This document shows, in pieces, positions 1 through 53,029 of a stretch of 64,000 nucleotides of DNA. Each line of letters begins with the position of its first letter. Within the stretch, counting starts at the first letter, position 1. The stretch is taken from contig LR882958.1 of the NCBI GenBank assembly GCA_904830895.1, forward strand, positions 3,364,001 to 3,428,000, written 5' to 3'. Under the pieces are notes generated by a model, which was not told where the DNA came from, ran no database searches, and was given only the letters and a program-made list of their open reading frames with translations. The position numbers and the translations under genes are program-made. The stretch comes from Planktothrix rubescens CCAP 1459/22. GTDB taxonomy: Bacteria; Cyanobacteriota; Cyanobacteriia; Cyanobacteriales; Microcoleaceae.

Positions 1-1797
1 TTTAATTCTCGCCCGTCCCCACAATTTGGCGATCGCAATATTACCAGATTCGTTATTATTGATCTCAGGAAAATTAACGGGTAAGGTTTGTTCATAGCGA
101 TCGCCTTTGGCGGTTATTCCGGTAATTTTTAATAAGCCATTACGACGATCTAATTTACGTCCAAATAATACTAAAGGTTGATTATCAAATAAATCAGATA
201 AGCTTACCGGATAAATTTCAGGTTTTAATCCTTCCCCTTGCCAAGTGATTTCCAAATCGGTTAGAATGGGGTTATTAATCTGTTTAAAAAATGTTTCCAC
301 GACGGTTTCTGTGGGTTCATCTTGACGAACAATTTGGGTTGTTCCCTGGCCAATTTCTCCTAAACGATTAAGTAAAAAACGATTGACAGAACTTCCCACC
401 CCAAAGGCGTACAATCTATTTCCGGGTTTAAGTTTATTTTGCACTGCTGCAATTATTTCTTGATCATTTCCAATATATCCATCTGTTAATAGAACAATAC
501 TGCGTAAGCGACCCTGGGAGGGAGAGGTAAACCTCATAACCGCCTGGATTCCATTTAATAATTCCGTCCCGCCATCTGCTTGTAATTGATTAATATAATT
601 AATCGCTTTTTGTCGGTTAGCGGGGGTATTTTCTAAGGGAATTTCTGATAAGGTATTGGTGGTATTGGCAAAATCAATAATATTAAAGGTATCTTCGGAA
701 TTTAATCCTTGAATAAATCTTTTCATTAATTCTTGAGATTTTTTCAGGGGTTCTCCTTCTTGGGAACCGGAGGTATCCATCAGAAAAATAACATCTTTCG
801 GAATAATTTGATTAGGATTATAACTAATTGCGGGTAACAAATAGGCGGCAAAATGTCCTCCCTGTTGATCTGCTTCTGTTAATACCGATGCTCTGGTATT
901 TTCTCCTGAAATCTGATATCTTATAATTAGATCTTTATTAGGAATTTGATCGGATTGATCTAAACTAACAAATATCCGATTTCCCTGCTGTTGGGTAATA
1001 ATTTTATGGGAAGTTGATCGGACATTTTCAATCGCAACCCCAGCATCAATTTCAACATCAACTTGAATATTATGGGGAGATTTTGCCTCCTGTTCAATAA
1101 TTGGTGACGTGATCCGATCCGCATCGGGAACTTGATTAGTATTGGGTTGATTTTTATTAATTAATTGACCGGGAATATAACGGGGGCCAACTACCATCGG
1201 AAACACAAATTCATAGTTTCCCCCTTCAAATTTTAATTGATCAATATAGCGAATCGTTACGGATATTTGTTCGCCCGGTTGAATATTAGCTACAGACTGA
1301 GTAAAGATATTATCTCTTTCCTGTTCTAATAATGCGGTGGTGCGACCTTGAGCTTTAGCCCGTTGATAGATTTCTTTGGCGCCTTCTCGGGTTTCAATTT
1401 TGGATTTTATGGTGCGATCGCCTATTTTAATTACCATCTGATCAACGGCGGCTTGATCGGGAAGGGGGAATACATAAATCGCTTCTAAAGGTTCTTGAAA
1501 CGGATTTTCAAAGGTTTGAGAAACTTCAACCTGTGAAACATTTCCCGAAATTTTAGCCTTAACCTGGGTTTGCTTTAGGGGAAAAACTTGGCTTTTAGTT
1601 TCAGATTTAACATATAAACCACCTAATTGTTTATCCATGGTTTGTTGCGGAAGTTGTGCTAATTTTAATACTGAGGATTGAGGATTCAACTGTTGAGGTA
1701 AACTGGCAAAACTTGGGGTAGTATTTCCAATAAAATGTAACCCACTAAAAATCATAATTCCCAAAGAAAGCTTTGTTATATTTGATAAAGGGTTCAT
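1..1797 (-). CDS. VIT and vWA domain protein, cut by the left edge
   Basis: The reading frame is open from an ATG at 1797 to base 1, giving 599 visible residues. The N-terminus has a hydrophobic signal-like stretch (about residues 5-30), so the protein is probably exported. A VIT (inter-alpha-trypsin-type) domain follows at about residues 60-200. A von Willebrand factor A domain starts near residue 325 and has an intact MIDAS (DTSGS) followed by a TDG motif. VIT-vWA proteins are usually surface or periplasmic adhesion or scaffold proteins that bind ligands through a divalent metal. The 3' end lies outside the window, so the C-terminal architecture is unknown. It diverges from lpxB across a 290-bp gap in which I recognise no other gene. 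Confidence 0.85.
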   Translation of the reverse strand, partial: MNPLSNITKLSLGIMIFSGLHFIGNTTPSFASLPQQLNPQSSVLKLAQLPQQTMDKQLGGLYVKSETKSQVFPLKQTQVKAKISGNVSQVEVSQTFENPFQEPLEAIYVFPLPDQAAVDQMVIKIGDRTIKSKIETREGAKEIYQRAKAQGRTTALLEQERDNIFTQSVANIQPGEQISVTIRYIDQLKFEGGNYEFVFPMVVGPRYIPGQLINKNQPNTNQVPDADRITSPIIEQEAKSPHNIQVDVEIDAGVAIENVRSTSHKIITQQQGNRIFVSLDQSDQIPNKDLIIRYQISGENTRASVLTEADQQGGHFAAYLLPAISYNPNQIIPKDVIFLMDTSGSQEGEPLKKSQELMKRFIQGLNSEDTFNIIDFANTTNTLSEIPLENTPANRQKAINYINQLQADGGTELLNGIQAVMRFTSPSQGRLRSIVLLTDGYIGNDQEIIAAVQNKLKPGNRLYAFGVGSSVNRFLLNRLGEIGQGTTQIVRQDEPTETVVETFFKQINNPILTDLEITWQGEGLKPEIYPVSLSDLFDNQPLVLFGRKLDRRNGLLKITGITAKGDRYEQTLPVNFPEINNNESGNIAIAKLWGRARIK

Positions 1798-2087
1798 AAA
1801 TAAAATTGTCATTATTTGAGTTAGACTATTAATTGGAGATACTCACTAAGACCCGATTCTGATTATAAACGTTCCTGAGTCAGATCACTTTTTTACATTC
1901 CCAAAACGACCGCAGGAAAAGCTACAATTTTCGTCTGTAAGTAGTGATTGTATCGTTTTTTACTCCGTCTGAATCATCAGATTTTCAGGAAAATTCAGCA
2001 GGGACTCAATAAACGGCTATAATCTGAGGTTGGGTTATGAATAAAACCGATCTAATCCGTTCCCAAATTATTTACTATTGAGTTCTA

Positions 2088-3308
2088 ATGCTTCCAAATC
2101 AAACCCTAATTCGGATTTTTATAAGTACGGGAGAAGTCTCTGGCGATTTACAAGGGTCAATGTTAATTGAAGCCTTATTCAGACAAGCCAAAAATCAGAA
2201 TATCCCTATAGAAATTATAGCATTAGGTGGGGAAAAAATGGCCGCAGCCGGAGCAATATTATTAGGAAATACTACAGGAATTGGTTCCGTTGGGCTTTTA
2301 GAATCTTTACCATATATTATTCCGACTTATTTAATTCAGCAAAAAACTAAACAATATTTAAAAAATCATCCCCCCGATATTGTAATTTTAATTGATTATA
2401 TGGGGCCGAATATTGGTATCGGAAATTTTATTAAAAATCACTTCCCCAAATTGCCGATTTTCTATTATATTGCACCGCAAGAATGGGTCTGGTCATTAGG
2501 TTCAAAAAGTACGGAACAAATTATTAAGTTAACCGACCAAATTTTAGCGATTTTTCCAGAAGAAGCTCGTTATTTTAAATCAAAAGGTGCGAAGGTTACT
2601 TGGGTGGGTCATCCTTTATTAGACCGGATGAAAACGGCTCCCAGTAGAGAAGAATCTCGGATAAAATTAGGGATGAAACCCGATGAAATTGCGATCGCCT
2701 TACTTCCGGCTTCCCGATGGCAAGAAATTAAATATTTAATGCCAATATTATTGGAAGCTGCTAAACAAATTCAATCCAAAATTCCTGGGGTTAAATTTTG
2801 GATTCCGGTATCTTTACCCGAATATTATAAAACCATAGAAACCGCCATTAAAAACTATCAATTAAATGCGGTTTTAGTTTCAACAAAATCAGGAAATTGT
2901 CAAACCTTAGAAGTAATATCCGCCGCCGATTTAGCCATTACCAAATCAGGAACAGTTAATTTAGAAATTGCCTTATTAAATGTTCCCCAAGTTGTGGTTT
3001 ATCGAGTCAGTAATTTAACCGCTTGGCTGGTTCGTCGTTTCTTAAATTTTTCAGTTCCGTTTATATCCTCAACTAATTTAGTGCAAATGCAAGCCATCGT
3101 GCCTGAACTTGTTCAAGAAGAAGTGACTCCTGAAAATATTGTGCGAGAGGCGATAGAATTGCTAACTAATCAACCCAAACGACAGGAAATATTAAATCGC
3201 TATCAACAGATGAAACAAGCATTAGGAGAGGAAGGAGTGTGCGATCGGGCAGCTTTAGAAATTCTCAGTAGTATAGCAGGGAACACCGGAACAGAAAAGA
3301 CATCATAG
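2088..3308 (+). CDS. lpxB: Lipid-A-disaccharide synthase LpxB
   Basis: This is a 406-residue glycosyltransferase family 19 protein that condenses UDP-2,3-diacylglucosamine with lipid X to form lipid A disaccharide. The N-terminal motif [12 protein letters not shown] is diagnostic, and the conserved PQEWVWS and VGHPLLD segments follow. Length is normal for the family. The gene stands alone here; in most cyanobacteria lpxB follows lpxC-fabZ-lpxA, none of which is in view. Its last codons abut the broken end of an avd gene on the other strand, so a rearrangement breakpoint lies at or just after its stop codon. The C-terminal tail after LEILSSI may have been altered by that junction. Confidence 0.95.
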
Positions 3309-3481
3309 GAAAGTTTTTCGGCTGAATATCTTGCCAAAATTAGGGTTTCTAAGATATCATAGAGACGGGCAATCATTCTATCGCCTAACATGAATTTGTG
3401 ATCCTTGGGCAAACGATTTAAAATGGGGACATACCATTTAATTAAATCGTAGGTTTTTTGGATAATCGGCAGTTCTTCCAT
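3308..3481 (-). pseudogene. avd: Truncated DGR accessory protein Avd
   Basis: From an ATG at 3481, 58 codons read as the N-terminal half of Avd, the four-helix-bundle accessory factor of diversity-generating retroelements. The segment starts [17 protein letters not shown] and includes PILNRLP, and I recognise it from memory of cyanobacterial Avd. Similarity ends near 3310. After that the frame runs antisense through the end of lpxB to a stop at 3203, with no Avd-like sequence. Full-length Avd is about 110-125 residues, so roughly half is missing. It lies 106 bp downstream of the variable target gene on the same strand, the usual target-avd order. The template repeat and reverse transcriptase expected next are absent. 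Confidence 0.8.
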
Positions 3482-3586
3482 TAACAAAACTTAATATTTT
3501 AGAAAAAATAAAAACGCTCGCTTCGCTCGGACACAAGGGAAAAGAAAAAAGAAGGGTAGAGGGCAAAAGAGCTAAAGAAAATAGGG

Positions 3587-5338
3587 CTAAGAATCCCGCA
3601 CACTAACCAGGGACGCACCTACAACCCAACAAACCCGAAAGCCGACGCTGACGCTGAAGTAGACGGGGTGACCGGTGATACGATTAGCAGAACGGCAGTA
3701 ATCAGGATCGCTGATCCACGAACCGCCCCGCACACAATGAGATCTTTCATCACTTAATAAGTTGACTAAATTTTCAACACTATAGATTTGATAACGATTA
3801 TCATTCTTATTCTGCTCATCCCAAACTTCCCCTTGTGTTGGTGCTCCTTGATAGTTTTCATGCCAAGGGTCGGCGCACCATTCCCAGAAATTACCATGTA
3901 GATCATACAACCCAAAGGCGTTGGGAGGGAATTGACCAACAGGGGTGGTTTCCTGTCGATATATTCCCTTGGGTTCCTCTGCATAGGTTTCAGTTCCATC
4001 ATAATTGGCTAAATCACTGGTTAGGGTTTCTCCAAAGTAAAATGGGGTGGTAGTTCCCGCACGACAAGCATATTCCCATTGGGCTTCTGAGGGTAAACGG
4101 TAGGGGCGTCCGGTGCGTTGCAGCAGTCGGGCACAAAATTCTACCGCATCGTACCAGGAAACGTTTTCTACGGGTCGGTGAGAACCCCCCCTAGCCCCCC
4201 CTTGGTAAGGGGGGGAACTGGAGGTTTCTGAAGCCCCTGTTTCTAAAGGGGGTCGGTTAGAACCCCCCCTAGCCCCCCCTTGGTAAGGGGGGGAACCGGA
4301 GGTTTCTGAAGCCCCCCCTTTGTAAGGGGGGGTTGGGGGGGGTTTGCTTGTTAAAGGGGGTTGGGGGGAAACTCCTAAAGCCCCCCCTTGGTAAGGGGGG
4401 GTTGGGGGGGTATCTTTGAAGCGAGAACAGTCAGGATCAAGATCCCGTTGAATTTTAGGCCCCTTAGCCACGGCTTTCCACTGGGCTTGGGTGATGGGAT
4501 ATTTGGCCATGAAAAAAGGAGGGACTGTAACTTGATGTTGAGGATATTCGTCTTTGTCTCCTTTCCCCTCCAGTGAACCCATGAGGAATGTCCCCCCAGG
4601 AATATAAACCATGTCTAAGGTGACTCCATCCCCCAAGTCTTCGGTGAAGTATTGGGCCTGTTTGGTTTCCTGGTTGATAATTTTCCCCCAGTTATTAACA
4701 GTAACGGTTTCAAAGGAAAACACCGATAGGGGCAGTTCTTCAGAGGGTTCGGCTTCTAACTGTTGTGCTAGGGTGAGGATAGGGGCAAAGCCAGCTTCTT
4801 GGAGTAAATCCCCATAACTTTCGACTAAAGAGGCTAAACGCACCCGTTCTTGAGCATCGGCTTTTTTTAAAGCTTGTTGTATCGCTATTTTAATTTGTTC
4901 AAGGGCTTCCCCTGGTCGAGTATAGGCTAGGGCTGTCCAGTGGGGTTCGGGGCCTAATTGCCAAGCAATGCGGCTATTATTAGGTAGGGAAATTTGTTGT
5001 TGGATGTAACCTGTCATATAGTCCGCCAGACGGTTGAGGCGACGTTCTCCAAAGTTGGCTTTGAGGCGACGGAGTAACAAGTCTCGGACTTTGCCATCAA
5101 TAGCATAGAGTTCCCGTCCGACTGAAACACAGAGGGAAGATAACAAGATATCCGCAACAGCAATAAAATCACAGTCAGGAACGAAATTTTCCCGCAAACA
5201 ATATAATAAATGAGGCGTGAGGGCGAGGGGAAAAGCCGCATGACATAATAAGTCCATCGTCTTGGGCTTGGGTTTAAAGCGTTCTGCAAAGGCTTCAAAC
5301 CGATGGTCAGCGAGTTGTTGTCGGATATCATTAACCAT
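3587..5338 (-). CDS. FGE-like (C-lectin fold) protein with DGR variable region
   Basis: This 583-residue protein has an N-terminal alpha-helical domain (about 1-190) of a type I associate with cyanobacterial proteins encoded beside MoxR and vWA genes. A formylglycine-generating-enzyme/SUMF1-like domain follows (about 200-575). Family hallmarks are MVYIPGGTFLMGS, YPITQAQW, ENVSWYDAVEFC, RLPSEAQWEYACRAG, LYDLHGNFWEWCAD and VRGGSW. The domain is interrupted at about residues 306-384 by proline/glycine-rich repeats encoded by a palindromic DNA element. The last 50 residues carry a DGR variable-region signature. In DGR targets this fold works as a binding scaffold rather than an oxidase. It is the last gene of the operon starting at 8513, so it is probably the recognition or effector component of that system. 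Confidence 0.85.
   Translation of the reverse strand: MVNDIRQQLADHRFEAFAERFKPKPKTMDLLCHAAFPLALTPHLLYCLRENFVPDCDFIAVADILLSSLCVSVGRELYAIDGKVRDLLLRRLKANFGERRLNRLADYMTGYIQQQISLPNNSRIAWQLGPEPHWTALAYTRPGEALEQIKIAIQQALKKADAQERVRLASLVESYGDLLQEAGFAPILTLAQQLEAEPSEELPLSVFSFETVTVNNWGKIINQETKQAQYFTEDLGDGVTLDMVYIPGGTFLMGSLEGKGDKDEYPQHQVTVPPFFMAKYPITQAQWKAVAKGPKIQRDLDPDCSRFKDTPPTPPYQGGALGVSPQPPLTSKPPPTPPYKGGASETSGSPPYQGGARGGSNRPPLETGASETSSSPPYQGGARGGSHRPVENVSWYDAVEFCARLLQRTGRPYRLPSEAQWEYACRAGTTTPFYFGETLTSDLANYDGTETYAEEPKGIYRQETTPVGQFPPNAFGLYDLHGNFWEWCADPWHENYQGAPTQGEVWDEQNKNDNRYQIYSVENLVNLLSDERSHCVRGGSWISDPDYCRSANRITGHPVYFSVSVGFRVCWVVGASLVSVRDS
3641..3715 (-). other. DGR variable region (VR) core
   Basis: These are the 25 codons between the Trp of RGGSW and the Phe of GFRV. 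All 25 end in C or T, and 16 end in C, although the window is AT-rich. About 13 read as single or double A-substitutions of AAC (ATC, AGC, TAC, ACC, CAC, GTC, TTC). That is the footprint of adenine-specific mutagenic retrohoming on a template rich in AAC codons. The invariant frame (RGGSW, CRSANR, GFRV) matches variable regions of other FGE-type targets. Downstream bases 3587-3640 are conserved-looking and would be the mutagenic-homology anchor. No template repeat was found in the window. Confidence 0.8.
4184..4411. repeat. In-frame array of C/G-rich palindromic elements
   Basis: Several copies of a palindromic unit (C-run, TTGGTAA or TTTGTAA, G-run) are spaced by short linkers. Three contain TTGGTAA and one TTTGTAA, with degenerate copies around 4240 and 4350. 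They lie inside the FGE-like gene without breaking its frame and are translated as PPTPPYQGG and SPPYQGGARGG segments. Such units are common intergenic palindromes in cyanobacteria. Here they form a roughly 79-residue insertion in a lectin-fold domain. Confidence 0.85.
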
Positions 5339-5344
5339 TAGAAA

Positions 5345-5450
5345 TCGGGTTTTTTTCCTTGTTCCCTGGTTCTACCAGGGAATATTAACGGGAGGCTCTG
5401 CCTCCGAATCATAGCAGGCGGAGCCTGCAATAAGCATTGCTAGGTAGAAC
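5345..5450. repeat. Mosaic of small palindromes between operon genes
   Basis: The spacer between the FGE-like gene and the vWA gene holds three nested short inverted repeats: TTCCCTGG with CCAGGGAA, a GGAGGCTCTGCCTCC palindrome, and GCTAGGTAGAACCTAGC. They resemble the mobile palindromes common in Planktothrix and Microcystis intergenic DNA. They could fold in the mRNA and alter expression of the last gene in the operon. Confidence 0.65.
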
Positions 5451-6530
5451 CTAGCAACGAGAAATTACACGAACCATGGCATTGAGTCCAGAACAGTTAA
5501 ACTCAAACATGGGAAGATGGAGAGTTTCTATTATTCCTGATGCTGTTGTATTTTGCCAACGATCTTCGGGTAAAGGATTAAACCAAATTATAGACCGTAC
5601 TAAGGGTTCTATTTGATCAAAAAAGACTTGAGTTAATTCAATTCGTTCTGGATTATAATTTCCCCGTCCTGCTCCCCCATCACTAAAAATTACCACAATA
5701 GTTCGATTTTTGTGCAGGGTTGGAAGAATTTCATCCAGGGGTTTTGCTTGGGGTTGGTTGGGAAATAAATAAAGATAATTATGGGGACAATTTCTAAAGT
5801 AATAAATTTGGGTTTTCCCAAAGGTGTGTTTTTTGAGACTGGTGATTAATTGTTGGGCTAGAATATGAAACGGAATCATGGAACCATCCCAGTCTATTAA
5901 CAATAATAATTCTAGGGAATTAACCCGACGAGGACGGAAAACGGGTTCAAAGATTTGACCTTGACGGTAAATTTGAGCTAAGGTTGCGGGGATATCGAGT
6001 TCAGTTGCATGACCTTCTGGAATGGGATATCGTAAAAAACGCCAACTTTGCAGGATTTGTCGTTCTGTAACGGGTAAATTTTGAACGTTAAAACTAAAGT
6101 CTTTGGAGGGTTTTTTTTCGTTTTGGGGTCGAAATCCTTCGCCGCGTAAAGCAATGGGAATTTGCACGGAATTGGATGGTTTTGGGGTGGGTATTTTGTC
6201 AGGAGTTGAGGGGTTTGGGTTGGGGGTGATTTCGGGAGTGGGGGGAGTTTTAATTGTCTCAGATTTTAATGGGGTTTCCGGTAATTTTTGTGACTGAAAA
6301 CGGGCAAAATAACGATCAAATTCCGTATCAAAAATACCAGAATTAAAAGATTCTTTGGGTTTAAACCACAGCAAACGACAGAGTTGTTTCAGGTCGGCTA
6401 AATTGCTTTGACCAAACCCTAAAGTTAACGCTTGTTGAAATAACAGATATTGTTCAACGGTCAGCGACATTCCTGCGTCTCGTAGGTGCAGAAATAAACC
6501 TAAATAATTAGGGTAATTTGGGTTATTCAT
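5451..6530 (-). CDS. vWA domain protein of a MoxR/vWA system
   Basis: This 359-residue protein has an N-terminal helical region (1-80), a Pro/Thr-rich linker (90-130) and a C-terminal vWA domain (about 195-355). The metal-site motif is D213-W-D-G-S217, so the first serine of the usual DxSxS is replaced by Asp. The IFSDGG motif near residue 280 supplies the later aspartate. Such vWA proteins pair with MoxR ATPases as substrate adaptors. Its start overlaps the end of the MoxR gene by 8 bp, consistent with translational coupling. The spacer to the downstream FGE-like gene is 112 bp and filled with small palindromes. Confidence 0.85.
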   Translation of the reverse strand: MNNPNYPNYLGLFLHLRDAGMSLTVEQYLLFQQALTLGFGQSNLADLKQLCRLLWFKPKESFNSGIFDTEFDRYFARFQSQKLPETPLKSETIKTPPTPEITPNPNPSTPDKIPTPKPSNSVQIPIALRGEGFRPQNEKKPSKDFSFNVQNLPVTERQILQSWRFLRYPIPEGHATELDIPATLAQIYRQGQIFEPVFRPRRVNSLELLLLIDWDGSMIPFHILAQQLITSLKKHTFGKTQIYYFRNCPHNYLYLFPNQPQAKPLDEILPTLHKNRTIVVIFSDGGAGRGNYNPERIELTQVFFDQIEPLVRSIIWFNPLPEDRWQNTTASGIIETLHLPMFEFNCSGLNAMVRVISRC

Positions 6531-7521
6531 CGCATTTCCGTTGATAGGAGTCTTGACTTTCTTTGGTTTTTAGTAAAGTTCCCAATAGAGGGAGATTACT
6601 CGCTAAATCTTTAATATCTTCAAATGCTTCAGATACAGGTTTCTTAAGGAGAATTTTCATCAAGTCCAACAGTTCGCTAGTTCCGGCTTTTTTAGCATTT
6701 GGGCGGTTACTTCCCATTTCTCGTACACCTAAAAACTGATCAACTGCTTCATCAACTAATTCGAGTTGGTCTGAGTTGAGATTAGGAAAATGCAGGTTAA
6801 CAATTTTAATTAATTCTTCTTCATCAGGAAAATTCAAGTAATAATATAAACACCGACGGAGAAACGCATCAGGAAGTTCTCGTTCTCGGTTACTGGTAAT
6901 AATCACAAGGGGAGATTGTTCCGCTTTGATGGCATTATCTCCCGTGGCTCCAATTTCAGGTATTTCAAACTCTAATTTATCTAATTCTAACAATAAATCA
7001 TTGGGAAAGTCAATATCGGCTTTATCAATTTCATCAATTAATACAATCGGTCTAACTTCTTTGACTGCAAAAGATTTTCCTAATTCTCCTCTTTTTAAAT
7101 AGGCTTTTTGATTGTTTAATCGTTTAATAACGGCTTTAATTTCATTTTCTTCTAAATAGTTTTTTGAGTTATTCATCCCTAAAAATTGAGCATCTCTTAA
7201 GCGGGCGATCGCATCATAGGTGTATAATCCATCCTGGGCGCGAGTGGTGGATTTAATATTCCAAGGAAAATAGGGCCATTTTTGATTATTTTCCTTGAGA
7301 TAACGTTGACTAAATTCATAGGCGATCGCAGGTGCGAGTTGTGTTTTCCCACAACCGGGTTCCCCTTCTAAAAGTAAGGGACGTTCTAAAGCGATCGCTA
7401 AATTAACTGCTTGAATTAATCCCTTTTCAGGACGATAGGGACACAGTTTCTTTCCCCGTTGATTCGGTTCCGGTTGCGGTTGACATTGTTTATCACCTGT
7501 GTATTCTAAAGGTTGATTCAT
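6523..7521 (-). CDS. MoxR-family AAA+ ATPase
   Basis: This 332-residue AAA+ ATPase has a Walker A motif (GEPGCGKT, residues 53-60), a Walker B motif (VLIDEIDKAD), a sensor-1-like ITSNRERELPDAFLRRC segment and the arginine-finger region. The chosen ATG at 7521 overlaps the stop of the upstream gene as ATGA. A start at 7566 is possible, but it lies inside that gene and would add 15 non-conserved residues. MoxR proteins couple ATP hydrolysis to remodelling of partners recruited by vWA proteins. Here the vWA partner is the next gene. Overlaps on both sides make the three genes one transcriptional and translational unit. Confidence 0.92.
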   Translation of the reverse strand: MNQPLEYTGDKQCQPQPEPNQRGKKLCPYRPEKGLIQAVNLAIALERPLLLEGEPGCGKTQLAPAIAYEFSQRYLKENNQKWPYFPWNIKSTTRAQDGLYTYDAIARLRDAQFLGMNNSKNYLEENEIKAVIKRLNNQKAYLKRGELGKSFAVKEVRPIVLIDEIDKADIDFPNDLLLELDKLEFEIPEIGATGDNAIKAEQSPLVIITSNRERELPDAFLRRCLYYYLNFPDEEELIKIVNLHFPNLNSDQLELVDEAVDQFLGVREMGSNRPNAKKAGTSELLDLMKILLKKPVSEAFEDIKDLASNLPLLGTLLKTKESQDSYQRKCDE

Positions 7522-8513
7522 AACGTAAAACTCCGTTCTATATCTGAATAATAGTTTATACTGCAAGACTCACAAATTTGCTCTAAAGTGAAAATTGGTA
7601 GACTGTTTTGTTCTATAATATCTTCAATACAACCTTCGATCTGTTCTGTGGAGTAGTTGTATAATAAATTAGGGAGTTGAGCACCTCCCCATGTCCGAAT
7701 TACTCCCTCTTTAAAATCCTGTATGGGGGTTAAGTCAATGAGTAAGTTAGAAGGTGAGTTAAAAGTTTTATTTCCTACAATAAATAAGATCATTTTAAAA
7801 GGGTTTTTAGAAGAATTATGGTTATTAATTTTATCAATAACTCTTAACCAGACTCGTTCTAAAAATGACTCTAAACCTTGATCAACTTTATGAATATCTG
7901 TAATGGATAAAATAACAGTTCGAGTAGTCCACTGTTGATAAAGTTGTTCAGCGATCGCTTCAGGATTAGGGTAACATTTGATTGATTCTCCCATATCTTC
8001 CCAAAAATCTAGGAGAGGTTTTTTATGGGGAATATTAAGAGGTTTTTGGTAAGCGGTGGAATTATAAGGAATTAAACCTGCTAAACGGTTCACTAACCAT
8101 CGTTGTCCATAGCCTTTTTCCCCATGAATTAAAAAGGCTCCAACAGATTCCATTTGTCCCAAGGATCTGCGAAAATGATATTCTTGATCAATATAATTCA
8201 GATCGAATAACGCTTCCTTTAGTTTTTGGCTAGGAGTATTTGAGTTATTAAATATATTTGATTGTGATAGATCAACAACATCGGAGAACTCCAAACCCAA
8301 TGTTTTAACAATTTCTTTAGCATAATCTGTATTAACGTTTTTACCAGCAAAGAAGCGTTTAACTGTATCTACTGAACAACCAACTTTAACAACTATTTGC
8401 TCATAAGTCCATTCTTTTTTTGTTTCCTGGGTTTTAGATTTCTGCGCGTTTCGGAGTAAGTTTTGTCCCTCCTCACTAGCTTTAACTCTACGCGGTTCTC
8501 TTTTTTTAATCAT
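7518..8513 (-). CDS. HTH protein with degenerate STAND-like P-loop domain
   Basis: This 331-residue protein is the first gene of the MoxR/vWA operon. Residues 1-80 form a Cro/C1-like helix-turn-helix (YEQIVVKVGCSVDTVKRFFAGK). The rest resembles a P-loop NTPase, but the Walker A site reads GEKGYGQRW (residues 131-139), with Gln replacing the catalytic Lys. This matches the 'inactive STAND' proteins predicted in conflict systems, including the FLIHGE...GQRWLVNRL context. A Walker B-like VILSITDIH lies near residue 200. It is probably a DNA-binding sensor or regulator that no longer hydrolyses ATP. A 9-bp iteron array lies just upstream of its start. Confidence 0.75.
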   Translation of the reverse strand: MIKKREPRRVKASEEGQNLLRNAQKSKTQETKKEWTYEQIVVKVGCSVDTVKRFFAGKNVNTDYAKEIVKTLGLEFSDVVDLSQSNIFNNSNTPSQKLKEALFDLNYIDQEYHFRRSLGQMESVGAFLIHGEKGYGQRWLVNRLAGLIPYNSTAYQKPLNIPHKKPLLDFWEDMGESIKCYPNPEAIAEQLYQQWTTRTVILSITDIHKVDQGLESFLERVWLRVIDKINNHNSSKNPFKMILFIVGNKTFNSPSNLLIDLTPIQDFKEGVIRTWGGAQLPNLLYNYSTEQIEGCIEDIIEQNSLPIFTLEQICESCSINYYSDIERSFTL

Positions 8514-8554
8514 AGATAACAGTCATCACAGTGACACTAAACCTAATCCATTTT

Positions 8555-8612
8555 AGGGCAAATAGGGCAAATAGGGCAGATAGGGCAGATCAAATAGGGC
8601 AGTAGGGCAGAT
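8555..8612. repeat. Direct 9-bp iterons upstream of the HTH gene
   Basis: Six imperfect tandem copies of AGGGCARAT lie 42-99 bp upstream of the HTH gene start on the minus strand. They are in the divergent spacer shared with the cysteine-dioxygenase-like gene. Their position just before a gene encoding a DNA-binding protein makes them a candidate autoregulatory operator. A neutral short tandem repeat is equally possible from sequence alone. Confidence 0.6.
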
Positions 8613-8795
8613 CATTTAAGTAACACGATCTGCTCTTGAACACAACAAATCATCTTGATAGGGTATTTACAGAAGCAAGAAACAAACGTTTTGCGCTGGG
8701 CCTGAACCTTGACAACTGCATAGCAACCTTTCGGTTGACATGAAAGGCCATCGATTCAGTTATCTGTTCAGACAAGTAAATCAACGGCAAAACTA

Positions 8796-9305
8796 ATGAT
8801 TAGTCAGATTGTACAACAGAACAACGGTGTTTCCTCACGAAAAAGGGTTAGTCAGCCCCTGACTATCGAGAAATTCCTGATCCCACTCAAGGAAATTCCC
8901 TCTCACCTGTTAACCCTGGACACATTCAAAGACCTGGTGACTCGCTTAGATTTACCGAAGGAATTTTGGGAGGCATTTGTAATGTTTCACCCTGATCGCT
9001 ATGGCCATCAAATCCTGTTTCGGAATGATTCTGTTGAGGTGCTGGTGATGTGTTGGGGGCCAGGTCAACTCTCTGGCGTTCACCCTCATAAACAGGCAGC
9101 CTTAAATGTTACGAAAGTGCTGCAAGGGACTATTACGCAACAGCGATATATTACTGACGAAAAACGGAAGTTATTCTGTTGGAAAGAAGAAACCGTAAGT
9201 GCGGGAGAAATTACCTGGACTGACCGTTATGAATACCACCAGTTAGTTAATAACAGTGATGAAGATTGCGTAAGTTTAAACCTGTACGCACCCGTTCGCA
9301 ACTAG
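8796..9305 (+). CDS. Cysteine dioxygenase-family cupin protein
   Basis: This 169-residue cupin matches the type I cysteine dioxygenase family, non-heme iron enzymes that oxidise cysteine to cysteine sulfinate in the cytoplasm. The facial triad is visible as H96 and H98 (GVHPHKQAALNVTKVLQG) and H148 (YEYHQLVN). Tyr164 in LNLYAPV fits the conserved active-site tyrosine. It is shorter than the roughly 200-residue animal enzymes but normal for bacterial versions. Substrate specificity (cysteine or 3-mercaptopropionate) cannot be settled from sequence. It is followed by a clear hairpin and appears monocistronic. Confidence 0.85.
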   Translation: MISQIVQQNNGVSSRKRVSQPLTIEKFLIPLKEIPSHLLTLDTFKDLVTRLDLPKEFWEAFVMFHPDRYGHQILFRNDSVEVLVMCWGPGQLSGVHPHKQAALNVTKVLQGTITQQRYITDEKRKLFCWKEETVSAGEITWTDRYEYHQLVNNSDEDCVSLNLYAPVRN

Positions 9306-9317
9306 GAATTAAATCAC

Positions 9318-9345
9318 AGGAAAAGGTAATATTTTGCCTTTTCCT
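9318..9345 (+). terminator. Hairpin after the cysteine dioxygenase gene
   Basis: Nine-base perfect arms (AGGAAAAGG and CCTTTTCCT) flank a 10-base loop 13 bp after the stop codon. The descending arm is T-rich, so it could act as an intrinsic terminator. Confidence 0.6.
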
Positions 9346-9375
9346 TTCTGAAGATTTCTGTTAGGAGGAAATATT

Positions 9376-10133
9376 ATGGACTGTCTCAGAAATACCAAAG
9401 GCAAGAGAATGTGCGAGTTAGTTCAAATCCCCAATACAACCAAAGAGTTCATGTGTACTGAATGCAAAAATCAGTTTATCAAAAAAGGCGAGGGTAGCGA
9501 TTTTGATGGGGTTTGGATACTGTTGATATTGTCTCTGCTATTCTTTGTTTTTCTGTTAAGTGGGTGTAGCAAACAATCAACCAAGTTACTGTTAATCAGA
9601 ATTGCGGATAGTAGTGCTTCAGCCCTCAATGATCCGAAGCAAGCAAAAGGATCTAAAGATACTTGTTTTGGTCTGGCAGATGGGGCAAAACCAGGGGATC
9701 AACAGGCCTTAATTCAAGTGAGTCAAGACATTATTGCCACCGACCCAGCGATGATCAAAGACTCCAATGATGGCTATGCTGTCTGCCATCAAAAAACCGA
9801 ATCTAAAGGCCAAGGAACCTATGTCTGTCCGGCTTTAGATTTGGCTGTTGAAATGAGCGATCGCCACCCTGAAACCCCAATTATTGTACTACAAATTCAG
9901 GCCAACGAAGGAGAAGAATTTTGTCCAGACACCTTAAAAACCTCGCCAATAAAGTCTCATCCCGACAAGGAAAACTCTTGATTATTGGCAGTACCAACGA
10001 TGGCAATACGGGGTTTAATACTAATCTTTGGAATAGCCTCAAAGATTTACCTAACACCCAGTTTTGCAATCAGAATATCCGAAGCTGTGTCAAAGATTCA
10101 ATCAAAAATATTCGTTCTAATCAGGAGAAGTAA
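9376..10133 (+). pseudogene. Frameshifted membrane-anchored protein of unknown function
   Basis: The gene starts at 9376 after a strong AGGAGG site. It encodes a short cytoplasmic segment with Cys pairs (MCTEC), a transmembrane stretch near residues 47-63 ending in a lipobox-like LSGC, and an extracytoplasmic domain whose start (LLLIRIADSSAS) resembles the first strand of a vWA-like fold. The zero frame stops at 9981. From about 9936 the -1 frame continues plausibly (KLLIIGSTNDGNTGFNTNLW...) to a stop at 10133, 4 bp before the next gene. Adding one A to the A5 run at 9936-9940 restores a single 253-codon frame. This could be a mutation, a sequencing error or frameshifting. I do not recognise the family. 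Confidence 0.6.
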
Positions 10134-10137
10134 ACCT

Positions 10138-10311
10138 ATGATTTCCAAATTTGATGAAGACGTGATTTTACAGGAATTTATTGCTGAGAAGTTGTTACCT
10201 GAACAACTCCCCAATATCTTCGTGCTTTACCCTCGCTTAAGCCAAAATTTGACGATTTTAGCGCCGTTAAAATATGCCTTAGAAATGAAGCGACGGTATC
10301 AAGTTAGTTAA
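10138..10311 (+). CDS. Small protein of unknown function
   Basis: This 57-residue ORF starts at ATG 10138, preceded by an AGGAG site about 9 bases upstream that overlaps the end of the preceding gene. It is probably translated from the same mRNA. The sequence (MISKFDEDVILQEFIAEKLLP...) is amphipathic, predicted soluble, and has no signal peptide or transmembrane segment. I recognise no family. An upstream in-frame start at 9985 would overlap the preceding gene and is less likely. Confidence 0.6.
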   Translation: MISKFDEDVILQEFIAEKLLPEQLPNIFVLYPRLSQNLTILAPLKYALEMKRRYQVS

Positions 10312-10342
10312 TTATCCTTCCCACTCGAACAATTAAACTTTG

Positions 10343-10395
10343 TTAGGAAAGTGTTGTTATTTTATATTCAATGCTACTAAAGTACACTTTCCTAA
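10343..10395. promoter_or_regulatory. Long-loop inverted repeat TTAGGAAAGTGT
   Basis: Twelve-base perfect arms (TTAGGAAAGTGT and ACACTTTCCTAA) are separated by 29 AT-rich bases, between the small gene ending at 10311 and the membrane gene at 10434. It could be a paired operator or an mRNA stem upstream of that gene. Confidence 0.5.
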
Positions 10396-10433
10396 ATCTT
10401 TAATCCATCTTACTCTGTGAGGAAAATTATCCT

Positions 10434-11417
10434 ATGAACTTACACAAATTTATCGTTCTTTTCTGTATCACAATTGCTGCATTAATCAATAGTCGTGGAC
10501 CCTTTGCGGCTTTAGGTGGATTTCCTGGCGAATGGCGCTGGGTTATTGCGATCGCAGTTAGTTTTCCTCTTGTTTATTTCACAGAATGGGCTATTGCTTA
10601 TGATGTGGCAATTTCCAGTATTAAACGAGATATTCACCATGATCAGGAGCAAATAGAAGCCAAAAAAAGAAACACCAAAAATCAACTAATTGCAGTGCGC
10701 GCAGAAGCAGAACAAATGGTCTTTAATGCAGTTTTGAAAGACTATTTACATCAAAAAACAAAAGTCTTTGTTGTTTTTGCCACTGGGCTTTTAATTGTGG
10801 AGTATGCAGCCACTCTATTTTATGTGCGTTTTCAAGGGGAAGATACCGATTGGATTATCTATATTGTCCCCTTACTCGGAATCATTTTAACAATAATGAC
10901 AGGATTTTATACCGGAAAAATTATTCGTTATCCTGAATATAAACGGCAAATTTCCCAAAAGTTTGATGCTTATTATCAACAACGTTATCAAGAAAACCCC
11001 GATGGAATTAAACACGCCAGTCGTGAGTTTTGGGTCTTAGAAGAACTAACTAAGTATGTGTTAGATCATCCTCAATCTACCCCTGAACAACGCAATCAAA
11101 AAGAAAATCAAGTTTGGATTGAACTGCTAATTCATCAACATAATCAAGTCTTGAAACAAGGACAAAAAGCAATTCAGGAGAAAAGACGCCAGTTAAATCA
11201 AAGTCCAGTGGGGTTAATTAGTCGAGAAGCTTGGGAAACTGCCATTAATGAGGAGATCAAAGCCATCACTGAGGAGTTCCAATTAGAACTTTACCAGATT
11301 CAAAGTGAATTAAAACGACGGGGCTATTCTATGGAATCTAATCAGGTCTTATCGACTGAAAAAATGAATTCTATTAAGCCTCCTAAATGGCAACTTAAAC
11401 CTGATTCTCATTCCTAA
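10434..11417 (+). CDS. Multi-pass membrane protein with coiled-coil tail
   Basis: This 327-residue protein has predicted transmembrane segments at about residues 5-20, 35-55, 105-125 and 140-160. A charged, coiled-coil-prone loop lies between the second and third (residues 60-100). The C-terminal half (170-327) is long, soluble, helix-rich and rich in Gln, Lys and Glu. The topology suggests a membrane anchor with a cytoplasmic coiled-coil arm. The N-terminus weakly recalls DUF4407-type membrane proteins, but I cannot assign it. It probably works with the two upstream genes, which share orientation and close spacing. Confidence 0.65.
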   Translation: MNLHKFIVLFCITIAALINSRGPFAALGGFPGEWRWVIAIAVSFPLVYFTEWAIAYDVAISSIKRDIHHDQEQIEAKKRNTKNQLIAVRAEAEQMVFNAVLKDYLHQKTKVFVVFATGLLIVEYAATLFYVRFQGEDTDWIIYIVPLLGIILTIMTGFYTGKIIRYPEYKRQISQKFDAYYQQRYQENPDGIKHASREFWVLEELTKYVLDHPQSTPEQRNQKENQVWIELLIHQHNQVLKQGQKAIQEKRRQLNQSPVGLISREAWETAINEEIKAITEEFQLELYQIQSELKRRGYSMESNQVLSTEKMNSIKPPKWQLKPDSHS

Positions 11418-11423
11418 TTATTC

Positions 11424-11457
11424 AAGGAAGTCTCACTGATGCTAGGTGGACTTCCTT
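11424..11457. terminator. Hairpin between convergent genes
   Basis: Nine-base perfect arms (AAGGAAGTC and GACTTCCTT) with a 16-base loop lie between the membrane protein gene and the convergent Ycf66 gene. It is a likely bidirectional terminator. Confidence 0.6.
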
Positions 11458-11471
11458 AAATTTAAGGGAAA

Positions 11472-12332
11472 TTAAGAAGAACTATCAACCTCATCATCCG
11501 AATAGTCTACGGATCGATATTCAACATAATCTGTTGAATTATCATTCGGACGGCGATCTTCAGAATAGCGATATTCTGAAGAAGCAGAGGGACGACGGCG
11601 AGATCGGGGTGCATCAGAAGCCGAAGTTGTCCAATCTTCTCGATCTACCGCAGGCGTTGCGGGAGGGCGGTTAGAGCGACTTCTGGGAGGTCTTTGTTGC
11701 CGTTCTCTAGGGGGTTCTCCCCAATCCGAGGTCGGTTCTGGACGAGATTCTGGACGAGATTCTGGACGAGATTCTGAACGAGATTCTGGACGAGATTCTG
11801 GACTGGGACGACGTTTGCGAGGACGTTCCGCCGAGGTCGGATAGTCAACGGCACTACTTTTGCGACTAGAGGGACGCCGACGAACCGTATCATCCTCATA
11901 AGCATCGGCTCGGCTCAAACGAGTATCACGACTCCCGCGAATTTGACGGGCCATCGGCATATATTCGTCCGTCGGTTCGAGTTCATCTAATTCTGCATCC
12001 ACCCGATAAACGTCACTGACATAGCGTTCATCGTCCACAATGGGCCCTCGTTCCTTAGCTTGGACAACGGCAATTCCTCTGAGGCGAACACTTTCCACCG
12101 CAAAGAAAACCGCACTTCCAGTTAATAAAAATTGACCAAAGGCTAGAATTGGATCAAGTCGCCATCCTTGAAACAACAGAATCCCGCCACAGAGTAACGC
12201 AATGGCAGCAAAGAAAATATCATGATCCCGTGCTAGTTTTGGCCGCCAAGAACGCAGGAAATATAATCCAGCACCAGAAACCGCGAGGGCAATGCCCACT
12301 AAGCTGCTGAAATTTAAACCTAAATTAACCAT
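11472..12332 (-). CDS. Ycf66 family protein
   Basis: This 286-residue protein begins with the membrane domain typical of the cyanobacterial and plastid Ycf66 family (residues 1-95, about three hydrophobic helices, with SGAGLYFLRSWRP and a segment ending VESVRLRGIAVVQAKERGP). The rest is a hydrophilic, disordered Arg/Ser/Pro-rich tail with a short RPES/RSES repeat run near residues 173-200. The exact role of Ycf66 is not established. It lies next to psbX on the same strand, consistent with a thylakoid context. The tail is probably fast-evolving. Confidence 0.9.
   Translation of the reverse strand: MVNLGLNFSSLVGIALAVSGAGLYFLRSWRPKLARDHDIFFAAIALLCGGILLFQGWRLDPILAFGQFLLTGSAVFFAVESVRLRGIAVVQAKERGPIVDDERYVSDVYRVDAELDELEPTDEYMPMARQIRGSRDTRLSRADAYEDDTVRRRPSSRKSSAVDYPTSAERPRKRRPSPESRPESRSESRPESRPESRPEPTSDWGEPPRERQQRPPRSRSNRPPATPAVDREDWTTSASDAPRSRRRPSASSEYRYSEDRRPNDNSTDYVEYRSVDYSDDEVDSSS
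11734..11812. repeat. 12-bp tandem repeats encoding RPES
   Basis: About six tandem copies of a 12-bp unit (GATTCTGGACGA on the plus strand) lie in the 3' half of the Ycf66 gene. Because the unit is a multiple of three, copy-number change keeps the frame and only alters the length of the disordered tail. Confidence 0.8.
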
Positions 12333-12428
12333 TATTTTTTCTCCTATGCCAGTCCTATCTTAGCGATTTCTTTTGAAAATCTCTAATCACCGGAGCTTGG
12401 GGCTGGGTATTTTGGCAACAATACAACA

Positions 12429-12473
12429 TTAGGGGCTATCGATTCAGACAAAATTCTGATTCTTAGCCCCTAA
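12429..12473 (-). terminator. Hairpin downstream of psbX
   Basis: Ten-base perfect arms (TTAGGGGCTA and TAGCCCCTAA) enclose 25 bases, about 60 bp past the psbX stop on its strand. It is a plausible transcript end or 3'-stabilising stem for psbX. Confidence 0.55.
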
Positions 12474-12533
12474 GTTTATGGGTTTAACCAGGATTTTGGC
12501 AAGTCTGCCTAGACCTGTTCCCAGATAACCAGT

Positions 12534-12653
12534 CTAGGAACGAATTACTTTATCTTTTTTGCTGATAAAGAGCAGACCGACAGTTGCAGGAATCACCACA
12601 ATCAGGATTCCAGCCAGCAAACTATAGAAAAAGTTCATTAATGAAGGTGTCAT
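12534..12653 (-). CDS. psbX: Photosystem II protein PsbX
   Basis: This 39-residue ORF encodes a single transmembrane protein with the PsbX pattern: an N-terminal MTPSL, a hydrophobic helix containing IVVIPATVGLLFIS, and a basic end KKDKVIRS. PsbX is a peripheral low-molecular-weight photosystem II subunit near cytochrome b559 that helps quinone turnover at the QB site. The start is the ATG at 12653. It lies 201 bp upstream of the Ycf66 gene on the same strand. Confidence 0.92.
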   Translation of the reverse strand: MTPSLMNFFYSLLAGILIVVIPATVGLLFISKKDKVIRS

Positions 12654-12814
12654 AACAAATGCGATCCTTGTCTTAGATTGATTTCTTGGTTTAACAGTTT
12701 AACAAAATTTCACAATCTTGAGAAGGTATTTGTCTGTTTATGAGAAAACTTCCCAAAACCGCTAGAATTGATCCGATAAACAGTAACAAAACTTAAAATA
12801 TTTTTTCCGATCCT

Positions 12815-13096
12815 ATGGACACAATAACAATTTTAACTTGGGGTTTAGGTTTAATTCTGGGTTTGATGACCTTTTTGTTTATTTTCAGAATCGTCCTCAC
12901 CTGGTATCCCCAAGTTAACCAGCAGCGTTTTCCATTTAACCTAATTGTTTGGCCCACCGAACCCTTTTTAGTCATTACCCGCAAAATTGTTCCCCCCGTG
13001 GGAGGGGTAGATATTACCCCGATTATTTGGGTGGGACTATTTAGTTTGTTACGAGAAATGCTCCTCGGTCAACAGGGATTATTAAGAATGATGTAG
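12815..13096 (+). CDS. YggT family (Ycf19-like) membrane protein
   Basis: This 93-residue membrane protein has two hydrophobic segments (about 5-28 and 65-82). It carries the YggT family signature between them: a TWYPQVNQ-like segment, then PTEPFLVITRKIVPPVGGVDITPIIW. Cyanobacterial and plastid members (Ycf19/YlmG) have been linked to thylakoid or nucleoid organisation, but the molecular role is unclear. It is divergent from psbX, sharing a 160-bp spacer that probably contains both promoters. Confidence 0.9.
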   Translation: MDTITILTWGLGLILGLMTFLFIFRIVLTWYPQVNQQRFPFNLIVWPTEPFLVITRKIVPPVGGVDITPIIWVGLFSLLREMLLGQQGLLRMM

Positions 13097-13208
13097 GTTA
13101 ATCTTTGAATATTAGTGGATCAGGATTTAGATCAAAACAGTGTATTATGTCCGATACTGGCGGTTTTGTCCAGAATTTCAATAACAACTATATTGTCTAA
13201 GTCTATTT

Positions 13209-14792
13209 ATGTTAAACCGAATTATTCAATTTTTCAAACGACTGATTCAACGCCTGTTTGGGAAGCAACCTAGTCCTCCATCGCCATCGGTTGAAGCAAC
13301 TCCAACTCGCACGGATACGGAATATGAAGCCCTATTTCTGCAACTGTTGGACACCTTACAACCTAATAGCAGTCGAGGACAAATTAAGGGATGGTTAATT
13401 GGTAACAGAGTTCAAGAAGCGCAGTTAGTGGCTTGGTTGGAACGGTTTGGAACTCGTTTACAGGAAATACCCAGCCAACACGAAGAACTCGCACGACGTC
13501 TGGTATTTTTAGCGAGTCTGGATATTGGTGATTTAGGAGATGTGGCGGGAAGTATTGGCAGAAGCATTTTGGCCCAATTAACTCCACAAACCGAGGTTAT
13601 AAATTCCGATATTAATGAGATTAAACCAATCATTGATGCAGAATTTATCGAGGATGGGGTTGCGACTCCAGCAAATCCTTCTGAGAATATTGAGGTTTCT
13701 CCAATTATTAATGCAGAATTTATTGGGGATGGTGTTGCAATTTCAAGGGAAGAAGAAACCCCAATAGTTGAAGAAACTCCCGTTATTTCCCAACAGGAAA
13801 TTACTCCTGAAGTTACTCCAATAGTTGAAGAAACTCCCGTTAGTTATCAGCAGGAAATTGTTCCTGAAGTTACTCCAATAGTTGAAGAAACTCCCGTTAT
13901 TTCCCAACAAGATATAATTCCTGAAGAAACCCCAATATTTGAGGAAACTCCCGTTATTTCCCAACAGGATATAATTCCTGAAGAAACCCCAATAATTTCC
14001 CAACAGGAAATTATTCCTGAAGAAACCCCAATATTTGAAGAAACTCCCATTATTTCCCAACAGGATATAATTCCCGAAGTTACTCCAATAGTTGAAGAAA
14101 CTCCCGCTAGTTACCCACAAGATATAATTCCCGAAGAAACTCCAATAGTTGAAGAAACTTCACCAGAAGTTAAACAATGGTTTGAGCAAGGAATAAAACA
14201 AGATGAAGCTGGAGACTTTTATGGTGCTTTAGACTCATTTGATCAATTGCTTCAACTACAACCGAATCATATTCGTGTTTGGTTTTATCGAGGTAATACC
14301 CTCAGAAATTTAGGCAGAATTGAAGAAGCTCTATCCTCCTTTGAACAAGCGATTATCCTGAAACCAGAATATGCAGATGCCTGGAATAATCGAGGTAGTG
14401 TTTTAGAGGTTTTAGGGAATATGGAAGAAGCCTTAAAATCCTATCAACTTGCAGTTGATTTAGAACCCAATGATCCTTATATTTGGAATAATCGCGGAAA
14501 CGCCCTATCGGATTTAGGAAGATTAGAAGAAGCCTTAGAATCCTATCAACAGGCGATTCAATTAGAGCCTAATTATTTTAACGCCTTATATAACCAAGGC
14601 ATTTCACAACTCAATTTAGGACAATTAGAAGCAGCCTTAATTTCCTTTAACCGTGCGCTAGAATTGCAACCGGATGATGCCGATGTTTGGTATAATAAAG
14701 GTCTGACATTACAGGATTTAGGACAAACAGAAGCAGCCGTTGCCGCCTTTGAAAAAGTCAGGGAATTGCAACCGGATGAAATCGAAGGTTAA
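13209..14792 (+). CDS. TPR protein with Glu/Pro-rich tandem-repeat linker
   Basis: This 527-residue protein has a basic, amphipathic N-terminus (1-25) and a helical domain (about 35-125). A low-complexity linker (about 180-315) is made of repeated EETPIV/EETPVISQQ/IIPE units. Five tetratricopeptide repeats follow (about 320-525), recognisable by WYNKGLTLQDLGQTEAAVAAF-type helices. TPR arrays bind partner proteins, so this is probably a scaffold. No catalytic domain is visible. The repeated linker looks acidic and extended, and its copy number may vary between strains. Confidence 0.85.
   Translation: MLNRIIQFFKRLIQRLFGKQPSPPSPSVEATPTRTDTEYEALFLQLLDTLQPNSSRGQIKGWLIGNRVQEAQLVAWLERFGTRLQEIPSQHEELARRLVFLASLDIGDLGDVAGSIGRSILAQLTPQTEVINSDINEIKPIIDAEFIEDGVATPANPSENIEVSPIINAEFIGDGVAISREEETPIVEETPVISQQEITPEVTPIVEETPVSYQQEIVPEVTPIVEETPVISQQDIIPEETPIFEETPVISQQDIIPEETPIISQQEIIPEETPIFEETPIISQQDIIPEVTPIVEETPASYPQDIIPEETPIVEETSPEVKQWFEQGIKQDEAGDFYGALDSFDQLLQLQPNHIRVWFYRGNTLRNLGRIEEALSSFEQAIILKPEYADAWNNRGSVLEVLGNMEEALKSYQLAVDLEPNDPYIWNNRGNALSDLGRLEEALESYQQAIQLEPNYFNALYNQGISQLNLGQLEAALISFNRALELQPDDADVWYNKGLTLQDLGQTEAAVAAFEKVRELQPDEIEG
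13748..14162. repeat. Tandem repeats encoding the EETP linker
   Basis: Imperfect tandem units of about 30-60 bp (core GAAGAAACTCCCGTTATTTC, with a GAAGTTACTCCAATAGTT variant) fill this stretch of the TPR gene and keep its frame. Copies differ mainly at third positions and in a few Val/Ile and Glu/Asp changes, consistent with repeated duplication and slow drift. Confidence 0.8.
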
Positions 14793-49921: not shown

Positions 49922-50399
49922 TCTCTGAACTCTTGAAAATTGATTATTATTGATTACTCAGATATGATATTCTAAAACATCGCGGGTTTTGTAGCGATTT
50001 TTATTGAGATTGATTGCGATTTCAGCCCTAGTTGTTGAAAATAGCATAACAAGCTGGAAAATATATTATTAATCGGAACTATTTCCCCTAATAGTTCTTT
50101 TATAGAAATCTATTCAACTGAATGGTGGTGCGAGTATTCGATATCGGGTCAGGATGACCGAAGCATTCTTGAATAGATTTGCCCAGGATGTCAAGGGTTG
50201 AACTTCTTTTAAATCACTTTTTTTTAAAGAGTTTTTGATCTAAGTTCTATCATCTGTAATCTTACAAAATCTTCCCGTCTCCATACCGCTATTTTATTGT
50301 AGATTTTAAAACTTAATTAGGGTCAAAATCATAAATTTATTGTTATCATAAAACTTAACTATAAAATTACACTCAAATTGAGTAGATGGGTAATCAAAA
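49922..50399. other. Gene-free spacer
   Basis: This 478-bp AT-rich stretch between divergent murF and a hypothetical gene contains no ORF, RNA gene or clear repeat that I can support. It must hold the promoters of both genes. Confidence 0.6.
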
Positions 50400-51692: not shown

Positions 51693-51780
51693 ACTTCCTT
51701 AATTAAATATCTGAAAAAAGTGCTTGGAAATTTAGGTTAAGAATATCCAATTAATTTTGTTTAGGTACTTATAGCAAGAG

Positions 51781-51864
51781 GGAATAGGGAATAGGGAATA
51801 GGGAATAGGGAATAGGGAATAGGGAATAGGGAATAGGGAATAGGGAATAGGGAATAGGGAATAG
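51781..51864. repeat. 12-copy heptanucleotide array GGAATAG
   Basis: Twelve perfect tandem copies of GGAATAG lie just inside the left 25-bp inverted repeat. This is the short tandemly repeated repetitive (STRR) type typical of filamentous cyanobacteria. Copy number is probably unstable. Confidence 0.95.
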
Positions 51865-51872
51865 GGAAATAC

Positions 51873-53006: not shown

Positions 53007-53029
53007 CTCTTATTGGGGTAAAATCCAAT

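Follow-up and report, generated by a model that had tools for sequence, protein, structure and literature searches.

Multicellular bacteria hold more than their share of predicted ternary conflict systems. The inactive-STAND (iSTAND) class of these systems was named and defined by Kaur et al. (2020, PMC7159879), with FGS (FGE) domains in about 22% of systems (statements on this and the other papers cited here refer to the excerpts of each that were used). A minority of systems encode linker and effector in a separate gene (Kaur et al. 2021, PMC8195603), the targets of diversity-generating retroelements (DGRs) have been proposed as antigen sensors in MoxR systems, those of cyanobacteria included (Dore et al. 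2024, PMC10907252), and a 2025 study of Nostoc describes correlated expression of CHAT, MoxR, vWA and DGR target genes. Literature searches on iSTAND systems turned up no paper testing one. The window analysed here, a stretch of 64,000 nucleotides of Planktothrix rubescens CCAP 1459/22 (contig LR882958.1, positions 3,364,001 to 3,428,000; coordinates below count from its first base), contains an operon that appears to be an iSTAND-class MoxR-vWA ternary conflict system, a kind already described; it is marked by the allelic replacement of its core at one chromosomal site, and by a DGR target for which no DGR was found. Open reading frame (ORF) coordinates confirm the four minus-strand genes at 3587-8513 and the arrangement, with its overlaps, that an earlier note on this DNA had claimed for them. 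The following features were assigned:

7518..8513, minus strand: first gene, HTH (helix-turn-helix)-like/iSTAND (Pfam PF19995, E 7.1e-26)
6523..7521, minus strand: MoxR-type AAA+ ATPase, Walker A and B present (Pfam AAA, E 2.4e-8)
5451..6530, minus strand: vWA co-chaperone of CoxE type with a MIDAS (metal ion-dependent adhesion site)-like DWDGS (PF05762, VWA_CoxE, E 2.4e-8; motif alignment)
5339..5450, no strand assigned: dispersed multi-hairpin repeat of ~105 bp between the vWA and FGE genes (genome repeat search; z -5.3)
3587..5338, minus strand: linker-FGE gene (Pfam FGE-sulfatase PF03781, E 4.8e-56)
4717..5338, minus strand: linker domain, covering residues ~1-207 of the FGE gene product and called vWA-L from its position and homology (vWA-FGE region of relatives; identity step)
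3587..4716, minus strand: FGE-sulfatase/C-type-lectin-fold domain, the putative sensor (PF03781, 4.8e-56; PDB 2y3c match; nucleotide identity to a second genome, G059)
4172..4332, minus strand: G/C-rich in-frame repeat insertion of PPYQGG type within the FGE domain (repeat scan and sequence)
3594..3733, minus strand: DGR variable repeat (VR) and conserved 3' end (VR comparisons among targets and with the G059 template repeat, TR)
3203..3487, minus strand: bAvd-like avd reduced to its N-terminal half, with the truncation at ~3299-3305 next to lpxB (PF22296)

The operon resembles the systems of Kaur et al. (2020, PMC7159879) in its combination of iSTAND, MoxR and CoxE-type vWA genes with an FGS (FGE) module, and its host belongs to the cyanobacteria, which are among the main holders of iSTAND systems; the HTH-like N-terminus of the first gene product is not among the N-terminal modules that the excerpt of that paper names (TIR, DRHyd, peptidases, EADs and bDLD1). 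As in those iSTAND and iSTAND2 systems in which vWA-L and effector have a gene of their own (Kaur et al. 2021, PMC8195603), linker and effector stand apart from the vWA protein, but unlike those described in that excerpt, the effector or sensor is a DGR target whose DGR is apparently gone. The loci of Dore et al. (2024, PMC10907252) likewise combine a VR-bearing lectin with vWA, MoxR upstream and modular N-termini, and include one at which an HTH gene replaces VMAP and some with loss of the reverse transcriptase (RT) and MITE (miniature inverted-repeat transposable element)-like repeats; unlike the comparisons in the part of that study used here, ours is allelic (same chromosomal site and species, different core), and the core types are common to several sites and species. 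The cyanobacterial DGR variable proteins of Vallota-Eastman et al. (2020, PMC7517822) include similar kinase-linked and TPR-linked lectin targets and remote targets, whereas the window genome, unlike those in the excerpted text, keeps three targets and no DGR was found in it.

The stop codon of the iSTAND gene and the ATG of the MoxR gene overlap as ATGA at 7518-7521 (the MoxR start lies at 7521, within a longer ORF that opens with TTG at 7566), and the MoxR and vWA genes overlap by 8 bp (6523-6530), which is the MoxR-then-vWA layout of ternary systems. The FGE gene lies downstream of the vWA gene beyond a gap of 112 bp (5339-5450). The hairpin repeat in this gap, the linker domain and the truncated avd are additions to the earlier note. 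A scan for promoters and terminators gave 15 and 8 sites, compared with 10.9 (sd 3.5) and 6.4 (sd 2.5) in shuffled sequences, and Rfam at its gathering threshold gave no match in window positions 3000-12000. The dead STAND P-loop claimed by the earlier note was confirmed by alignment: GEKGYGQRW, at residues 131-139 of the first gene product, lacks the Lys-Ser/Thr pair, and GK[ST] occurs at this column in none of the 47 aligned first-gene rows (two of which have gaps there, and some of which are not iSTAND). Thus the third component, identified by PF19995 (7.1e-26), has lost its P-loop, as the iSTAND class requires. The Walker A Gly/Lys and Walker B DE residues are conserved in 100% of 49 aligned MoxR sequences, that of the window included. 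Two matches to the NCBIfam profile SAV_2336_NTERM, both under its cut-off, were found: the vWA gene product aligns with profile positions 33-235 (E 2e-14), and the beginning of the FGE gene product, weakly, with positions 387-472 (E 0.011). Residues 1-207 of the latter match the linker between vWA and FGE of fused vWA-linker-FGE relatives (for example at loci L065 and L059), so that a linker with a C-terminal effector or sensor is present; the name vWA-L is taken from Kaur et al. (2021), and the assignment is based on position and homology. The FGE domain matches a Treponema variable protein (PDB 2y3c, E 1.1e-14), and the three PDB alignments listed for this domain end before the VR. The PPYQGG repeats at 4172-4332 are G7-rich, and the frame of the G059 gene is lost in them; slippage at this point could toggle the sensor between off and on, or the break in G059 could be an assembly error.

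The gene neighbourhood, which the earlier note had proposed to compare across genomes, is conserved. Of 59 family genomes, 28 contain MoxR relatives at E<=1e-30, in 44 places altogether; a vWA match lies downstream at 40 of these and a same-strand first gene upstream at 43, and the neighbours include FGE at 18 places, avd at 3 and RT at 2 (counting ORFs of at least 70 aa, which leaves the 67-aa avd remnant of L059 outside the avd count). With five order-level loci, kept outside the 44 places, there are 49 loci, which yield 47 first genes (L168, a 178-aa fragment, was excluded, and L163, at a contig end, has none); by Pfam, 31 of these are iSTAND, 7 CHAT, 3 VMAP-C and 3 bDLD1. Together, the domain matches and the neighbourhood bear out the earlier description of a ternary MoxR-vWA system of conflict type with a DGR-target FGE module. 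The conflict (anti-invader) function is predicted, in the cited literature as well as here, and sequence cannot distinguish an immune from a self-recognition role. On a conjugative plasmid of Acaryochloris, the order iSTAND-MoxR-vWA-FGE-FGE occurs close to genes for a recombinase and a Tn3 transposase (Pfam assigns iSTAND and vWA; the other genes are as annotated). MoxR relatives were found in 40 plasmid records, every one less than 60% identical, and four viral relatives are 32-33% identical; matches in Acinetobacter 'phage' records were rejected as phage carriage, the one examined lying among recR, aroC and similar genes. One further cassette (L142, G007:C6) encodes an iSTAND protein with a Death-like bDLD1 module; its linker protein, of 1284 aa, lacks an FGE match.

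Comparison with G059, a genome of the same species as that of the window (G000), revealed a mosaic locus. On the lpxB side, nucleotide identity is 95.6% (1-3298), 91.7% (3305-4292) and 84.2% (4310-4714), and on the other side 89.7% (8700-9311) and 93.6% (9371-14159), but between these, at 4715-8699, a single 240-bp piece of MoxR aligns, at 72%. Over 410 bp beside the VR, the FGE scaffold reaches 99.0% identity, whereas the core proteins are 42% (MoxR), 31% (vWA) and 31% (linker) identical by BLAST, or 46-48% (MoxR) and 37% (vWA) by other aligners. Homology breaks at the boundary between linker and FGE, and linker, vWA, MoxR and iSTAND have been replaced as a block between the conserved FGE scaffold and the conserved flanks. 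As a control, 74% of the window aligns to G059 at 85% or more, with six gaps of more than 1 kb, of which four are due to presence or absence and two, at this operon and at a kinase-GUN4 gene, to replacement by diverged homologs.

Twelve cassettes of the genus have cores that fall into four types and one single:

Type W: G000 (site A, that of the window), G002 (site B), G004
Type N: G059, G007, G003 at site A, G001 at site B
Type X: G001 at site A, G008
Type Z: G007, G002

MoxR proteins are 78-96% identical within types and 45-56% between them, and vWA proteins 76-94% and 30-42%, respectively; site A holds types W, N and X in five genomes. In five comparisons of the window FGE gene with non-W relatives, identity steps from 26-48% (residues 1-207) to 66-94% (residues 208-300 and 390-545), the repeat insertion and its edge (residues 301-389) being left unbinned. 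G004 has the window core at 91-98% nucleotide identity, and G002 has it at about 90%, beside a flank of 71.6%. The MoxR tree rejects a grouping of G000 with G059 (p-AU, by the approximately unbiased test, 8e-38; long branches flagged). The flank tree separates site A from site B and rejects G000 with G002 (9.9e-74), which reflects different sites rather than species history, its fork of G000 with G059 being weak (51/9); the FGE tree also rejects G000 with G002 (3.6e-10), and groups G000 with G059 (92/97, not starred). These three trees indicate that core types have moved between sites. Type N is not uniform in its first gene, with 33% identity between G059 and G007, and G005 has a 97-bp scar of an FGE 3' end where G007 carries a cassette.

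The FGE gene is a genuine DGR target. G059 has avd, RT and TR at the same site; between its VR and its TR, 15 of 30 adenines are changed but none of the 110 other bases, and this TR, used as a query of the G059 genome, recovered the TR and a single VR only. Against the G059 TR, which is not its own, the window VR differs at 17 of 30 adenines and at 7 of 110 other bases, so the lost template of the window strain was probably somewhat different. Three of the four FGE genes of the window genome share a common VR and 3' end (that of the window, a kinase-FGE gene at C1:4026k and a TPR-FGE gene at C1:1165k); 30 of 112 columns vary among these three VRs, 28 of them at codon position 1 or 2 and 24 at adenines of the G059 template. 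Sixteen RT matches in the window genome include no DGR RT (13 have the QGGVISP motif, which we take to label intron-type RTs, and three have no motif call), and a DGR RT query of the same genome, with 16 candidates scored, gave nothing at 1e-20. Nor was a template found there: besides the three VRs, a search with the VR returned only two short matches (18 and 21 bases; E 0.07 and 0.86). About 1.6 kb of G059 is absent from the window between 3298 and 3305, where the remaining half of avd matches PF22296 at E 1.4e-7 (32.4 bits, cut-off 40; profile 3-54 of 107); an avd copy of 118 aa is found at locus L096. An operating DGR at the window locus was accordingly rejected, RT and TR not having been found and avd being truncated. 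The earlier note calls the lectin-like protein 'diversified', rightly as regards its variable repeat, which is adenine-biased relative to the G059 TR, but neither a TR nor a DGR RT was found to go with it. The putative lectin sensor thus appears to have been hypervariable formerly and to have lost its mutating machinery since; in the window strain it is now fixed, apart from what ordinary mutation, recombination or an incoming DGR could bring. DGR RTs occur in 3 of 10 genus genomes: G001 and G003, of nine in the RT scan, and G059.

The hairpin repeat that fills the gap between the vWA and FGE genes has at least 40 matches in the genome (the best 40 of 68 candidates) in about 33 separate places, seven being the same place on the other strand. 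One copy lies 104 bp past the TPR-FGE gene, at a site where avd and RT separate the target from the downstream gene in G001 and G003, and another about 80 bp past the end of the kinase-FGE gene; the chance expectation of a copy within 150 bp of a given point, from 40 matches, is about 0.002. MITE-like arrays in place of RT genes are described in the excerpt of Dore et al. (2024, PMC10907252).

The explanation that we consider best overall, and moderately probable, is a ligand-sensing iSTAND-class ternary conflict system with an exchangeable signalling core. We infer sensing, activation, output and the direction of the signal as follows. The FGE/C-type-lectin domain would bind a ligand through its variable face, the linker would relay binding to the vWA protein, and the MoxR ATPase would remodel the complex and so release or activate the N-terminal module of the iSTAND protein; the output may be DNA-directed through the HTH-like N-terminus in the window operon, CHAT protease or Death-like modules being found in relatives. 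A division into a shared sensor and an exchangeable core, which would recombine through homologous FGE and flank sequence, would suit the homology break between linker and FGE, and the exchange of cores may be maintained by selection. The roles could also be reversed, with the iSTAND protein sensing an invader (for example its nucleic acid) and the variable FGE as the effector that binds or sequesters it; this would follow the prediction of Kaur et al. (2021, PMC8195603, in the excerpt used) that inactive STANDs are nucleic-acid receptors and the C-terminal modules of vWA proteins effectors, and the N-terminal ~100 residues of the iSTAND protein vary too (G000 and G002 are 22% identical over 67 aa there, and 80% over 231 aa in the remainder). 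Diversification of the FGE by a DGR, however, is typical of ligand recognition, and the 7 CHAT and 3 bDLD1 modules among 47 first genes are typical of output, so that we regard the reversed arrangement as appreciably less probable than sensing by the FGE.

That the operon is a non-functional, decaying relic seems rather unlikely, since all four ORFs are open with their motifs kept and W-type MoxR proteins are 86-92% identical among three genomes, although the truncated avd, the failure to find RT and TR, and cassettes broken or lost in G059, G002, G003 and G005 would suit it. Least probable is a role of the MoxR-vWA pair as chaperones in the maturation of a metalloenzyme or membrane complex, the FGE protein being their client: pairs such as NorQ/NorD are maturation chaperones according to the excerpted literature, and the MoxR motifs are present, but a single site with discrete core types, carriage on a plasmid, a variable first gene and a DGR target would be unexpected in housekeeping maturation.

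Several observations weigh against a ligand-sensing conflict system with exchanged cores. PADLOC named no system for the four genes, and no defence model covered most of any of the proteins (MoxR had 11 partial matches, the best to mad8 at 1.2e-6, and the iSTAND protein one at E 0.032; the vWA and FGE proteins had none). The HTH in the N-terminal region (~1-100) of the first gene product is weak (Pfam E 0.045-0.075); its W-type relative in G002 matches HTH_26 at E 9.9e-6, over the curated cut-off, but because the two N-termini are so different, the match speaks for an HTH at this position more than for one in the window protein itself. The label 'regulator' in the earlier note leans on a weak HTH. 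G059 is the sole other genome of the species compared, and its FGE frame is broken in the G-rich repeat (a real phase change or an assembly error). Block replacement is not unique to the operon, as a Ser/Thr kinase-GUN4 gene of the window (44061-45428) has a 37% identical homolog in G059 between similar flanks. Site-A flanks are 83-88% identical between species of the genus, and the W core of G000 and G002, at about 90%, is not much above this, so that either transfer, possibly recent, or old shared types would fit between species. The cassettes of G002 are interrupted, and in G003 the FGE DNA contains no FGE ORF that reaches 70 aa; with G059, these broken cassettes fit decay as well as conflict.

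Beyond mechanism, we suggest tentatively, as a possibility that we would not call probable, that this is a polymorphic recognition locus like the major histocompatibility complex (MHC), plant R-gene or fungal het loci. A near-constant lectin scaffold would be kept at a fixed chromosomal site, a DGR acquired and lost by individual lineages would rewrite its ligand-contacting face, and discrete, deeply diverged core alleles would be exchanged whole across species of the genus, rare combinations being favoured against phages or competitors, or marking self. Strains of one species that are alike in flanks and sensor scaffold and unlike in core, with a DGR in one only, constitute natural allele pairs, with which one may ask what a core recognizes or does, and what a DGR adds.

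The flanks of the operon are as follows:

2088..3308, plus strand: lpxB, conserved flank, 98% identical in G059 at the amino acid level
8796..11417, plus strand: conserved flank with a cysteine-dioxygenase-like gene, a short Cys-rich protein (9376-9981) and a 327-aa gene (10434-11417)

The Cys-rich protein at 9376-9981 is nearly restricted to the genus, and its match to Pfam VWA_2 is at E 0.16 only; it contains a DSSAS stretch that presumably resembles a MIDAS motif. The gene, full-length or as N-terminal fragments, has 12 places in the genus, of which 11 adjoin a MoxR cassette and the other a VR scar; as a general component of the system it is unsupported outside the genus (three weak places in 2 of 49 non-genus genomes). 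Elsewhere in the window, a 6.2-kb stretch at 50001-56208 that is absent from G059 encodes a DNA methylase-Mrr protein (53425-56148) and an ORF (52095-53006) that we take to be transposase-like, and a perfect array of the heptamer AGGGAAT (12.9 copies) is found at 51779-51868.

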